This document shows, piece after piece, positions 5,465 through 10,551 of a stretch of 28,882 bases of DNA (position 1 is the first letter of the stretch; each line of letters starts with the position of its first letter). The DNA is taken from positions 1 to 28,882 of the IMG/VR virus record IMGVR_UViG_3300020437_000518. One strand, written 5' to 3'. Source of the stretch: a virus. A program made the position numbers and the translations under genes. A model generated the notes under the pieces. The model was not told the DNA's origin, made no database searches, and saw nothing but the letters and a program-made list of their open reading frames with translations.

Positions 5465-6343
5465 ATGATGAATAGAGCTATTTTTAGTCTGTATATTGAT
5501 GTGCCTGAAAAAGAACATTATGGTAAGTCAAATTTTAAAGGCGATAGTATTGACAAAGGTTTAAAAACCAGAAATGCCTTTAAGAACAACTATCAGAAAC
5601 TAATTGATTGTAAAACAAAGTATGCCGAATCTATAGGTGCGTCTTTTCATATGTTTGAATATGATGAAGACTATAAAACATATTCTGATAACTTAAAAAA
5701 AGATTTTCCTTATTTAACAGGTTACGAAATAGTTAATTTTTATAAGATACATTTATTGTATATTTTAGCAAAAAAATATGATGAGATATTATACCTAGAT
5801 TTTGACGCTGTGCCTGTTACCAAAGATAATTTTTTTGAAGTATGGGATTTATCTAAAGGTATATGTGTTTATAATAATAACGCTATGGTAAATAAAATGA
5901 ATAGGACTATTGATAAGATGAAACACGGCACTAGAAGTCCTACAGCTAAATTCTTTAACGCTCAGGCAATGCTAATTGCTGGTAGTTATAATCCTAAAAA
6001 TGATGTTATTAATACAGGCATTATAGGTGCTAGAAAAGAAGATATATTAAAGTTAGATTTCTTTGGTAAATTTTATGATACTATGAACTTAATGACAAAA
6101 TTAAAAGATGACGGTCTTGACGGATTATATCCTGAAAATATAATTGATATTTTTAGATATGACAATGAAACAATATTTTCATATAAGGTTGAAGTTAATA
6201 AAGTAAATGTTCAATGGTTAGATAATATATGGCATTATTTTTATGATAATCAATTTTATATACCTAAAGAAACAAAAATAATACACACAATTAATAAAGA
6301 GTTTGAAAATGTTTGGAGGTTTTATGAAAAATATTGTATATAG
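5465..6343 (+). CDS. Glycosyltransferase, GT-A fold with DxD (first of two tandem paralogues)
   Basis: A 292-residue protein. 'YDEILYLDFDAVPVTKDNFF' contains the metal- and sugar-nucleotide-binding DxD (Asp112-x-Asp114) in the context typical of retaining GT-A glycosyltransferases resembling GT8/GT34. 'VINTGIIGARK' (about residues 180-190) and a C-terminal 'KIIHTINKEF' match acceptor-side and C-terminal family elements. No signal peptide or membrane segment, so it should act in the cytoplasm. It is first in the rightward cassette behind the late promoter at 5424-5431. ATG codons at 5465 and 5468 are both possible starts. The next gene is a paralogue. Donor and acceptor are unknown. Confidence 0.82.
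   Translation: MMNRAIFSLYIDVPEKEHYGKSNFKGDSIDKGLKTRNAFKNNYQKLIDCKTKYAESIGASFHMFEYDEDYKTYSDNLKKDFPYLTGYEIVNFYKIHLLYILAKKYDEILYLDFDAVPVTKDNFFEVWDLSKGICVYNNNAMVNKMNRTIDKMKHGTRSPTAKFFNAQAMLIAGSYNPKNDVINTGIIGARKEDILKLDFFGKFYDTMNLMTKLKDDGLDGLYPENIIDIFRYDNETIFSYKVEVNKVNVQWLDNIWHYFYDNQFYIPKETKIIHTINKEFENVWRFYEKYCI
6315..6320 (+). promoter_or_regulatory. Strong Shine-Dalgarno that fixes the start of the second glycosyltransferase
   Basis: GGAGGT, a full-strength ribosome-binding site, lies inside the end of the preceding gene 3 bases before the ATG at 6324. It favours that ATG over the one at 6303, which has no such site. Confidence 0.7.
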
Positions 6344-7184
6344 TATCTATATTATAAATGATGATGAAACTATTAGCGAAAAACATAAAAGAACTAAACA
6401 TCATTTAAAAGAAAATTTACTTAAATTAACTGAAGTAAAAAAACAATATGCTGAAAAATGTGGCGCTGAGTTTGTATTATTTTATGCCGATAAAGATTGG
6501 GAAAAATTTGAAGACAAATATAGAGAGTATAAGTTTGATACTATTAATTTATATAAGATACATTTATTTGAAAAATTAAGTAAAGAATATGATAATGTTT
6601 TGTATCTTGATTTAGATGTTATACCTAATACAGATGAGTCATTTTTTGACAAATTTGATATGAACAAGATTAATGTATATGCGCCAGAAGCTACAATAGA
6701 AAATACTTGGAAAGAAAAAGAAATTATTAACTATAATACAAATAGAGCAACTTTTGATGAAATAATATCTGTTAAAGACAAATATGATATGTATGTAAAA
6801 GCAGTCTGTAAGAGAGCTATGTTGGCGACTAATGACATATACAATACTAATTATTTTATAGCAAATACAGCAATTCTAGGTGCAAATAAAAAAGCAATAA
6901 AAAATTTAAAATTTACAGATAATTTAGATTATATGATTGAAGTATTAAACAAAGCAAAAAATGAAGAGTTTTATGGAGAAACAATATCTAAATTATTTTT
7001 TCCTAATAATGAGGTATTTTTTCACTACCTATTAGAAAAGAATAATATAGATTGGTATAATTTACCTAGAGAATGGCACACGTATTATTTAAAAAATGAC
7101 GTGGTAGGACCTGAAGTAAATGACGCAAAAATGATACACCTAATTAACAAAAAATTTAATGACCTATGGATGAATCTGAAGTAA
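6324..7184 (+). CDS. Glycosyltransferase, GT-A fold with DxD (second tandem paralogue)
   Basis: 286 residues from the ATG at 6324, chosen because of GGAGGT just upstream; it overlaps the previous gene by 20 bases. 'LYKIHLFEKLSKEYDNVLYL' (about residues 76-95) followed by DLD (Asp96-x-Asp98) aligns by eye with the first paralogue ('FYKIHLLYILAKKYDEILYL' plus DFD), as do 'ANTAILGANK' and the C-terminal 'KMIHLINKKFNDLW'. The pair arose by tandem duplication and has diverged strongly between these landmarks, so the two probably differ in donor or acceptor. Cytoplasmic; no membrane segment visible. Confidence 0.82.
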   Translation: MKNIVYSIYIINDDETISEKHKRTKHHLKENLLKLTEVKKQYAEKCGAEFVLFYADKDWEKFEDKYREYKFDTINLYKIHLFEKLSKEYDNVLYLDLDVIPNTDESFFDKFDMNKINVYAPEATIENTWKEKEIINYNTNRATFDEIISVKDKYDMYVKAVCKRAMLATNDIYNTNYFIANTAILGANKKAIKNLKFTDNLDYMIEVLNKAKNEEFYGETISKLFFPNNEVFFHYLLEKNNIDWYNLPREWHTYYLKNDVVGPEVNDAKMIHLINKKFNDLWMNLK

Positions 7185-8302
7185 AAAAATTTTATAATAA
7201 AAATAAATCTTATTGTGCTATGCCATTTAAAGAGATATATGGCGATAATGCTGGTAGATATAGATTTTGTTGCCACGCTACAGAATATGAACCTATAAAA
7301 AAATATACTACAACTAATACAACACCATTTGATTTTTTCTTTTCGTCTGAAATGGAAGAAGTTAGAAATAAGATGTTATCTGGAGAAAAAATAGACGCTT
7401 GTAAAGTGTGTTATGATTTAGAAAAAAATAATAATGAATCATATAGAACTGGTAAATATAAAAAGAAATATGGTGTTGATTTAGAACCAAAACGAATTGG
7501 TTTAAAGTTGAGAATACACGGCTCTTATTGTAATCTAGGTTGTTATATGTGCCACCCTTATAACTCATCTACTAGACGAAATGAACTAAAAAAAGTATTC
7601 GGTAATAAATCATTAACAAATTGGAACGCATACCAACCACTAAATCATAAACAATGGAATGATAGTGTTAATGATATAATTAATAATATTGATAAAGTTG
7701 CATATATGAATATTACAGGTGGTGAACCATTACAATTACCAGGCCATTGGAAATTATTAGATAGAATACCAGATGAACACGCAAAACATATAACTTTATC
7801 ATATGACACAAATTTAACAGAGTTAGAATGGAAAAACAAATCAATATTTGACTATGTTGATAAGTTTGAAAAAATTAATTTAGGTGTTTCGTGTGACCAT
7901 TATGGTAAGAAAGAAGAGTGGATTAGATACCCTATTGACATAAAAAAATTTGAAAACAATTTAAAAAGAGCTCATAATTTAATCAAACAATTAAATTGTA
8001 CGGTGTCTTTATTAAATGTATTTGACTTATCAGAAATATATGATTACTATATGAACAAATTTGGCATAAAAACAACTTTTGTTAATGTATGTAGAGGACC
8101 TGAATTTTTATCTGTTAGAAATTTAAAACAAAAAGATAAAGATATGTTGTTAGAAAAATATAAAAATTTTACTGACTTTTCATACTTTGAAAATGAAATT
8201 AGAAAACATCCTACACACGAATTTGATAAATTAAGAACGTATTGTGATTCATTATCTAAACATAGAAATTTTGACTGGAAGGAATTGTGGAATGAATTTT
8301 AG
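7166..8302 (+). CDS. Radical SAM protein with N-terminal twitch domain
   Basis: A 378-residue enzyme with two Cys sets. The N-terminal set (Cys17, Cys35-Cys36, Cys79, Cys82, the last in 'DACKVCYDLE') matches the auxiliary [4Fe-4S]-binding twitch domain. The radical SAM set is Cys122, Cys126 and Cys129 in 'GSYCNLGCYMCHP', followed by the GGEP motif at about residues 185-188 ('NITGGEPLQ'). A twitch domain placed ahead of the barrel is a known architecture (twitch domain-containing radical SAM proteins). Auxiliary clusters usually bind peptide substrates or carry electrons in such enzymes, so peptide or protein modification is plausible. It overlaps the glycosyltransferase gene by 19 bases and the next radical SAM gene by 11. 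Confidence 0.85.
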   Translation: MDESEVKKFYNKNKSYCAMPFKEIYGDNAGRYRFCCHATEYEPIKKYTTTNTTPFDFFFSSEMEEVRNKMLSGEKIDACKVCYDLEKNNNESYRTGKYKKKYGVDLEPKRIGLKLRIHGSYCNLGCYMCHPYNSSTRRNELKKVFGNKSLTNWNAYQPLNHKQWNDSVNDIINNIDKVAYMNITGGEPLQLPGHWKLLDRIPDEHAKHITLSYDTNLTELEWKNKSIFDYVDKFEKINLGVSCDHYGKKEEWIRYPIDIKKFENNLKRAHNLIKQLNCTVSLLNVFDLSEIYDYYMNKFGIKTTFVNVCRGPEFLSVRNLKQKDKDMLLEKYKNFTDFSYFENEIRKHPTHEFDKLRTYCDSLSKHRNFDWKELWNEF

Positions 8303-8927
8303 AAGTAGGTCAGTTAATATTGACTCAACAATTAGATGTACTTTAGAATGTCCAAAATGCCAACGTCAAGCATTGAGACGAAAAGGTAAAAAAATACCTG
8401 GTCAAGATATGATATTTGATGATTTAATTAAACTTACAAAATATTTTAAAAAAGGTGTAAACTTTTGTGGTCAAATGTCTGACCCTATATTTCATCCTGA
8501 ATTTATTAATATGTTAAAATATTGTTATGATAATAATATTAATACTAGAATTGCTACTGCGGCTTCACACAAAAAAACTAGTTGGTACAAAGAGGCATTT
8601 TTAGCAAATAAAAATGCTAAATGGGTTTTTGGCATAGATGGTTTACCTAAAGATAGTCATAAGTATAGAATTAATCAAGACGGAGAACATCTATTTAATA
8701 TGATGAAAATGGCAAATGATTTTGGATTATCTGTTATATGGCAATGCATTGTTTTTAGATATAATGAAAATGATATTGAAAAATGTAAACAATTAGCAAA
8801 AGAAAATAATATTAAGATTGATATTAATATGTCTGGTCGTTGGCGAAATGATGACAAATATAAACCTTTAAATCCAAAATATTATTTAAATAGTAATAGA
8901 GAAGAGTTTTACAAAAGTTTAAAATGA
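8292..8927 (+). CDS. Radical SAM core protein lacking its own twitch domain
   Basis: 211 residues from the ATG at 8292, supported by AAGGA at 8279-8283 with 8-base spacing (an ATG at 8244 exists but lacks this support). 'STIRCTLECPKCQRQAL' gives Cys16, Cys20 and Cys23. 'CGQMSDPIFHPEF' stands where GGEP normally lies, and 'WVFGIDGLPKDSH' matches a later barrel strand. The chain ends where a twitch domain would be expected; that domain is encoded at the start of the next gene, in the -1 frame. The last codons (AGT TTA AAA TGA) form a canonical slippery heptamer at the stop, so a fused product is possible. Confidence 0.85.
   Translation: MNFRSRSVNIDSTIRCTLECPKCQRQALRRKGKKIPGQDMIFDDLIKLTKYFKKGVNFCGQMSDPIFHPEFINMLKYCYDNNINTRIATAASHKKTSWYKEAFLANKNAKWVFGIDGLPKDSHKYRINQDGEHLFNMMKMANDFGLSVIWQCIVFRYNENDIEKCKQLAKENNIKIDINMSGRWRNDDKYKPLNPKYYLNSNREEFYKSLK
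8918..8924 (+). other. Candidate -1 ribosomal frameshift site (TTTAAAA)
   Basis: The heptamer T TTA AAA is in the correct register (codons TTA and AAA, preceded by the T of AGT) and is followed at once by TGA. A -1 slip would continue at ATG ATA AAA, precisely the frame of the downstream gene. The downstream ATG has no Shine-Dalgarno in the usual window; only AGAGAAGAG, about 17 or more bases away, resembles one. I did not find a convincing downstream stem-loop. In AT-rich DNA such a heptamer can arise by chance. Confidence 0.45.
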
Positions 8928-9982
8928 TAAAACCTAAATGTCTACCACCTGGTAAAAAAGAAATAGCTTACACTACAACAGGACATATTGTGCCTTGTTG
9001 TTGGCTTGATAACCCATTAGGTTGGGAAGAACCTCAAATTAAAAGGTTGTATCAAGATAAATTAAAAGTATCTAATAATAAAGATATAGAAAGTATTGTA
9101 GATAGTAAAGAGTGGAATGATTTTTTTAAAGAATTAAAAACTAATCCATCAGAAACTTGTACAAGATTTTGTTCAGGTCCTATTGACTCAAGTATTAATA
9201 GAGCAAGAGAAAATGAACACAAACCAGGTAAAATAAAAATATGCACATTATATTTTGAAGGCAAATATACGCCAGACTATGTAGAGAAACTATACAATAG
9301 TTTAAAAAGAAACTGCACTATTCCTTTTGAGTTTATTTGTTATAGTGATAACCCTAATGTGAAAGCTGATGTTGTAATACCTTTAGTTAAACATAGTGAT
9401 ATTAAATTACATTGGTATAAATTGTCTTACTTCTCGCCTTTATTTGCTAATCAAAATCCGAATGATGAAATAATAATTATGGATATTGACCAAATTATTG
9501 TAGGCAATGTAGATGATATGATTGGTTATCCTGTTGGCGATAATGAATTAGTATCTTATAATAAATGGTGGGGTGGCAAACCTACTTACAATTTAAAATT
9601 AAATGGTGGATTTTATAAGTTTAAATCTGGTCATTTAAAAAAAATATGGGACGATTTTATATTAGCACCTGAAGATTGGCAACTAGATTGGTATAATAGA
9701 GGTGTTGTTCATTACAAATATTATGGAGAACAAAATTATGTAAATCATAAGTGTAAAGAACATAATATAAAATTAACTTTAATGCCAGCAGAATGGGTAT
9801 GCAAACTTACAAATAATGAAAAAGAAGATATAGAAAACCAACTTAAATATATGAAAAAATTTAATAAAGATTATATGATATTAGATAAACCTATTGATGA
9901 TTTAAAAGTTGTTCACTTTGCAAATCCTCACGCTAACATACATAATAGTAAATATGATTGGATAAAAGATTACTGGAAATGA
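8924..9982 (+). CDS. Twitch-domain / glycosyltransferase fusion protein
   Basis: A 352-residue two-domain protein. Residues 1-90 carry Cys6, Cys25-Cys26 ('GHIVPCCWLDN') and Cys79-x3-Cys83 ('ETCTRFCSGP'), the same Cys order as the twitch domain of the radical SAM protein at 7166-8302. Residues 104-352 are a GT-A glycosyltransferase: 'KIKICTLYF' opens the fold, 'IIIMDIDQIIVGN' carries the DxD (Asp187, Asp189), 'KLNGGFYKF' the acceptor-side strand, and 'VVHFANPHAN' near the end resembles the HFxGxxKPW element of GT8-like enzymes. It begins with an ATGA overlap with the radical SAM core gene, to which the twitch half must once have belonged. Such a fusion suggests the same substrate is handled by a radical SAM and a glycosyl-transfer step (inference). 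Confidence 0.8.
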   Translation: MIKPKCLPPGKKEIAYTTTGHIVPCCWLDNPLGWEEPQIKRLYQDKLKVSNNKDIESIVDSKEWNDFFKELKTNPSETCTRFCSGPIDSSINRARENEHKPGKIKICTLYFEGKYTPDYVEKLYNSLKRNCTIPFEFICYSDNPNVKADVVIPLVKHSDIKLHWYKLSYFSPLFANQNPNDEIIIMDIDQIIVGNVDDMIGYPVGDNELVSYNKWWGGKPTYNLKLNGGFYKFKSGHLKKIWDDFILAPEDWQLDWYNRGVVHYKYYGEQNYVNHKCKEHNIKLTLMPAEWVCKLTNNEKEDIENQLKYMKKFNKDYMILDKPIDDLKVVHFANPHANIHNSKYDWIKDYWK

Positions 9983-10551
9983 GAATAATTTGTGTTAATA
10001 CTGGTAATAAATTTGGTCAATGGTATGTTGATAATCTAAAACATATGATTGATAATTATTCTGGTTTAAAATATGATAGCTTTGAAGTAATTGATGAAGA
10101 AAAGCATAAAGGTGTTTTTAATAAACTTCAAATGTTTGATAAGTTTAGAGACGGTGAAAATTTATATTTTGATTTAGATATTTGCATATACAATAAAGTA
10201 CCTAATTTAATTAGAAAAGATTTGACCGTTCTACACGCCTGGTGGCGAGACAGAGACCACACTTCCCTTAATTCGTCTGTAATATCTTGGACAGGTGACC
10301 AATCTCACATTTACGATACTTTTAAAAAAGATGTTAATATGTGGCAAGAAAAATATAACAAGGGTATGGACCAAATGTTAGAAGAAAATTTTAAAGTTGC
10401 AACCTATGACAAAGTATGCTATACTATAAAAGATAATGAATATAAAAATAAAAATGATAATTATAGTATAATGTTATTTAATCAGAGACAATATCTTATG
10501 ATGTCTGGTTGGTCTAGTTGGTGGACTGATTACTTTCTTCCCAAAGAGTAA
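9979..10551 (+). CDS. Short GT-A glycosyltransferase-like protein
   Basis: 190 residues from the ATG at 9979, chosen for the ATGA overlap with the previous stop rather than the in-frame ATG at 9958. 'NLYFDLDICIYNK' gives the DxD (Asp65, Asp67). 'HAWWRDRDHTSLNSSVISW' parallels 'YNKWWGGKPTYNLKLNGGFY' in the preceding fusion protein, so the two are related. It is short for the family and lacks an obvious C-terminal HxxGxxKPW-like element, so it may be a reduced paralogue or work with a partner. Last gene of the rightward cassette; its end overlaps the leftward gene at 10514-11023 by 38 bases, tail to tail. Confidence 0.78.
   Translation: MRIICVNTGNKFGQWYVDNLKHMIDNYSGLKYDSFEVIDEEKHKGVFNKLQMFDKFRDGENLYFDLDICIYNKVPNLIRKDLTVLHAWWRDRDHTSLNSSVISWTGDQSHIYDTFKKDVNMWQEKYNKGMDQMLEENFKVATYDKVCYTIKDNEYKNKNDNYSIMLFNQRQYLMMSGWSSWWTDYFLPKE

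Follow-up and report, generated by a model that had tools for sequence, protein, structure and literature searches.

Two overlapping genes in a marine phage genome encode a radical SAM core and, on a second chain, an auxiliary-cluster (twitch) domain. We consider it probable that the two chains are translationally coupled and form a split SPASM/twitch radical SAM enzyme, in which the twitch domain, here borne by a glycosyltransferase (GT), docks on the core. The window, the whole stretch of DNA that was analysed, is IMG/VR virus record IMGVR_UViG_3300020437_000518 (28,882 bases). The split core/twitch enzyme is widespread in phages and has apparently not been described before; we found no report of a split or stand-alone twitch or SPASM protein in the open-licence literature.

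Genes and domains of the operon

The features discussed here are all on the plus strand:

5465..6343, +, putative glycosyltransferase-like gene with an LDFDAV motif (judged from sequence only; no family match)
6324..7184, +, putative glycosyltransferase-like gene with an LDLDVI motif (judged likewise; no convincing family match)
7166..8302, +, upstream radical SAM gene, one chain, in the twitch domain-containing family NF033640 (E 3.3e-79, above cut-off)
8292..8927, +, radical SAM core subunit, 211 aa, CxxxCxxC, start ATG; a chain without an auxiliary-cluster domain
8918..8924, +, in-register T TTA AAA heptamer at the stop of the core gene; regarded as coincidental
8924..8927, +, ATGA start/stop overlap of core and twitch-GT; likely translational coupling
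8924..9982, +, twitch-GT open reading frame, 352 aa, in the -1 frame relative to the core
8924..9232, +, predicted twitch/SPASM auxiliary Fe-S domain (Cys6, 25, 26, 79 and 83)
9233..9982, +, glycosyltransferase-like domain with a DxD motif (MDIDQ), fused to twitch (phrog_1962, E 1.7e-12)
9979..10551, +, downstream 190-aa gene with an ATGA overlap with twitch-GT; conserved in the related loci L003 and L005

The core has the CxxxCxxC motif that the radical SAM superfamily carries in a partial TIM barrel, and its Cys16, Cys20 and Cys23 are invariant in the core alignment (A1). It matches phrog_21308 (E 6e-21) and, below cut-off, Pfam Radical_SAM (E 3.5e-5), and would hold the SAM-cleaving [4Fe-4S] cluster. 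The twitch domain that opens the next gene would dock onto the core, bringing one auxiliary cluster. Pfam SPASM is matched by 10 of 10 twitch homologues (best E 1.8e-6) and, below cut-off, by the window's own twitch (0.018); an NCBIfam search with the twitch gave weak matches only. The spacing of its cysteines, C-x13-G-x4-C and C-x3-C, we take to resemble the SPASM/twitch motif, a likeness of pattern and not a residue-by-residue alignment. An earlier note made from the DNA alone had described the separation of the 211-aa core from its twitch domain, the twitch cysteines and the fusion to a DxD glycosyltransferase. All three descriptions hold: the open reading frames are distinct (8292-8927 and 8924-9982), Cys6, 25-26, 79 and 83 are invariant in 10 homologues, and the fused domain combines GT family similarity (phrog_1962) with a DxD motif, as expected of a GT-A-like enzyme.

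The known SPASM/twitch enzymes SuiB, BlsE, MoaA, BtrN and anSMEcpe are similar in that they pair a core with one auxiliary-cluster domain in the same predicted joint fold. They differ from the window's enzyme, whose auxiliary domain, with its conserved cysteines, is supplied in trans on a separate, GT-fused chain, the core polypeptide having none. The role of the auxiliary clusters is still debated for many members of the group. These clusters are described as belonging to extensions at the C-terminal end of the core chain (PMC10470005). The next gene upstream in the window, which overlaps the start of the core gene by 11 nt, also combines radical SAM and twitch domains (NF033640, N_Twi_rSAM), but in one chain of ~380 aa and in a family distinct from the split core. 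The two genes before it (5465-6343 and 6324-7184) carry LDxD-type motifs and are probably divergent glycosyltransferases.

The junction between core and twitch

The junction reads AGT TTA AAA TGA, and a -1 slip would read on into ATG ATA AAA. The earlier note, which correctly placed T TTA AAA in register with the slip entering the downstream frame, proposed programmed -1 frameshifting that would produce a core-twitch-GT chain of ~560 aa alongside the free core, and added the caveat that simple ATGA coupling would give the same layout. Of the two, coupling of separate chains explains the layout better; we regard programmed frameshifting as very unlikely, even though a canonical X XXY YYZ heptamer stands immediately ahead of the stop and exactly in register. 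Because the -1 frame opens only at 8900, a slip would have to fall within ~25 nt. The last codon before an ATGA overlap must end in A, and AAA makes up 28% of such codons (operon codon usage); a canonical heptamer of any kind is expected by chance at 1.6 to 2.5% of ATGA-overlap stops. Across the window, heptamers occur at chance frequency (107 in frame versus 113.6, sd 10.4, after codon shuffling of 23 genes and 8,800 codons), with 20 in-frame T TTA AAA versus 11.4 after shuffling, and the core is the only listed window gene with T TTA AAA exactly at its stop.

The heptamer is retained in L098, an independent assembly with an arrangement identical to that of the window, and at the L007 ATGA junction there is another canonical one, A AAA AAA. 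The L098 and window heptamers share descent (the cores are 90% identical), and the retention says little because 7 of 10 TTA and 17 of 24 AAA codons are unchanged between the two in any case. Heptamers are thus found at 3 of 33 ATGA junctions (window, L098 and L007) versus about 0.5 to 0.8 expected, an excess that is small and non-decisive. Against slippage, 30 of the 32 ATGA junctions tabulated among homologues have no canonical heptamer at the stop, and even clade-mates of the window (L008 and L009) have an ATGA overlap that reads G TTA AAA. Nor is downstream RNA structure notable, as nested folds were no better than shuffles (z 0.64, -0.17 and -0.86). The window therefore shares the heptamer with programmed -1 frameshifting but differs from it in having no stimulatory structure among the nested folds and no conservation of frame.

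Initiation at the twitch start gives a similar picture. The earlier note had remarked that the 8924 ATG has no close Shine-Dalgarno (SD) sequence, which would favour slippage; the site is indeed absent, but so are those of the neighbouring starts at 7166 and 9979. Among homologues, an SD-like site is found 3-12 nt 5' of the twitch start in 41 of 75 cases versus 22% at random positions in cores, and sites of four bases or longer in 22 of 75 versus a background of 8%; L098 has AGGA 7 nt before its twitch start. This pattern of enrichment is explained by independent, coupled initiation, and the core and twitch-GT would accordingly be made as two chains, by translational coupling at the ATGA.

Split, one-chain and GT-fused forms

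Scans of viral contigs with core and twitch alignments provided two sets of loci (the best 80 of 272 and the best 80 of 240 candidates), and three more came from scanning the genomes of bacteria and archaea. Profile searches of these best-matching loci, with profiles built from split members only, recovered 90 pairs with core and twitch on separate genes, 25 genes with both in one chain, and 45 cores near which no twitch was recognised (many of these cores belong to other families or lie at contig ends); the loci were picked by similarity, so the proportions of split and fused forms are no census. The twitch directly follows the core in all 90 split pairs. Its frame is +1 in 45 pairs and -1 in 44, and in one (L012) it is in the same frame with a TAA between. 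When 100 cores were placed in a tree, those with a GT-fused twitch grouped in one seven-row clade that includes the window (support 98), and all three relations occur within it (three -1, three +1 and one in-frame stop). The frame relation changed at least 20 times among the split rows of the tree, and fused and split states about five times. No single-chain core-twitch-GT was found among the best-matching loci examined. The earlier note had proposed checking whether the heptamer and the -1 relation are conserved in homologues; they are not, and the observation that it had named as contrary to a slip, an ATGA overlap lacking the heptamer, was made in L008/L009 and about 30 relatives. On the basis of homologue junctions, chance counts and RNA folding, we rejected frameshifting.

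The same comparison bears on whether a once continuous gene only looks split through a sequencing error, or is decaying after a frameshift mutation. A single base in an A run separates the two frames and one-chain relatives do occur, but L098 and about 90 further loci are split likewise, with varied junctions, and all motifs are kept in both products. We consider this explanation extremely improbable, and sequencing error was rejected given the identical arrangement in the independent L098 assembly.

Two further loci extend the range of arrangements. L013 carries two split core/twitch pairs in tandem on one contig (4705-6630). The split pair in L099 (3462-4414) precedes an SDR gene on a contig of 174 kb from a Hyphomicrobiales metagenome-assembled genome (MAG), which suggests that the split form may also exist in a bacterial chromosome.

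To model the two parts together, we used the L012 core and twitch as one chain, reading the TAA as one residue, with a 119-row alignment. The first 320 residues are mostly confident, weaker at ~201-230 and beyond 311; most of core and twitch has a pLDDT above 85, and the core exceeds 90 over most of its length. End to end, the model matches SuiB (Z 18.3), BlsE (17.4), MoaA (16.9), anSMEcpe (16.8) and BtrN (15.1), and core and twitch are therefore predicted to share a joint fold. The artificial one-residue link favours docking, so the model supports a heterodimer and does not prove it. The GT domain was modelled poorly (pLDDT about 56, with twitch-GT modelled alone), and its PDB matches were weak (best E 0.01; GT6 and GT8-like enzymes) and we based no family assignment on them. 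Searching the sequences of solved structures with alignments A1 and A7 returned nothing useful.

That the genes are split is in itself no proof that their products bind, and the gene upstream of the core encodes another radical SAM protein; the core might therefore stand alone, with the twitch-derived cluster domain of the GT serving another partner such as the NF033640 protein. We think such independence unlikely, given that in 90 split pairs the twitch comes directly after the core, that 25 relatives have the two in one chain, and that the joint L012 model matches one-chain enzymes. Docking of the twitch on the core, with each chain binding its cluster, would best fit these observations.

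The origin of the GT fusion can be traced in three neighbouring loci. In L003, L004 and L005, an NF033640-like radical SAM gene is followed directly by a GT gene and the core-twitch cassette is absent. This stand-alone GT, which also has a counterpart in Pelagibacter phage Mosig, is 80-84% identical to the window's GT domain in L003-L005, and its start overlaps the upstream gene by 11 nt, as the core start does in the window. When the window flanks are joined, DNA identity across the junction is 85% (L003) and 79% (L004), which indicates that a core+twitch cassette of ~0.94 kb lies exactly between these genes in the window, and the second gene of the window's cassette runs on into the GT. From these sequences, gain of the cassette in the window's lineage appears a simpler reading than its loss in L003-L005.

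Phage context and possible role

The closest annotated phage found to the window is Pelagibacter phage Mosig, a T4-like pelagiphage filed under Kyanoviridae. Its genes 00084 and 00085 lie side by side and encode a core of 211 aa and a twitch of 112 aa; they differ from the window's pair in their +1 frame, 8-nt overlap and unfused twitch, with the GT homologue about 6 kb off. A 2,045-aa protein is encoded close to the window's operon, in the position of Mosig's VrlC-annotated gene, which likewise lies close to the pair in Mosig. In pelagimyophages, host recognition clusters that are thought to change the surface of the host carry GTs, VrlC and radical SAM cassettes (PMC7029224). The window resembles them in that its GT genes and its radical SAM cassettes are grouped about a VrlC gene; our search of that paper turned up no description of a split core/twitch pair or twitch-GT fusion (PMC7029224). 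A T4-like marine phage genome with 12 radical SAM genes has been reported (PMC5332604).

Many marine T4-like phage contigs carry the core-twitch cassette, and we lean towards regarding it as a modular two-subunit marine-phage family, in which the auxiliary subunit may be free, core-fused or GT-borne, the last of which would couple radical chemistry to sugar transfer. With core and auxiliary domain separate, each could be omitted, mixed or mutated independently. The GT-A-like domain fused to twitch in the window's clade is a substrate hint for that one clade: docking would unite radical chemistry with sugar transfer, and a nucleotide-sugar epimerase gene is located near the operon. A possible target during infection is the modification of a glycan or nucleotide sugar, and glycan modification is our best, tentative guess of the role in this clade. 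A sugar might conceivably be the substrate there; related cassettes are found away from glycan genes, which leaves room for a substrate other than a sugar.

In other phages, related core-twitch cassettes have a tail sheath stabiliser gene on one side and a terminase small subunit gene on the other, both T4-like (L110, 2088-6737; also L026 and L048), which speaks against a general sugar role; in L110 a one-chain core+twitch gene flanks the small terminase gene on each side. Cultured Campylobacter phage CP220 (L017) has a comparable cluster, with at least five annotated radical SAM genes in about 7 kb, adjoining a possible glycine amidinotransferase gene and two genes with nucleotide-diphospho-sugar transferase domains.
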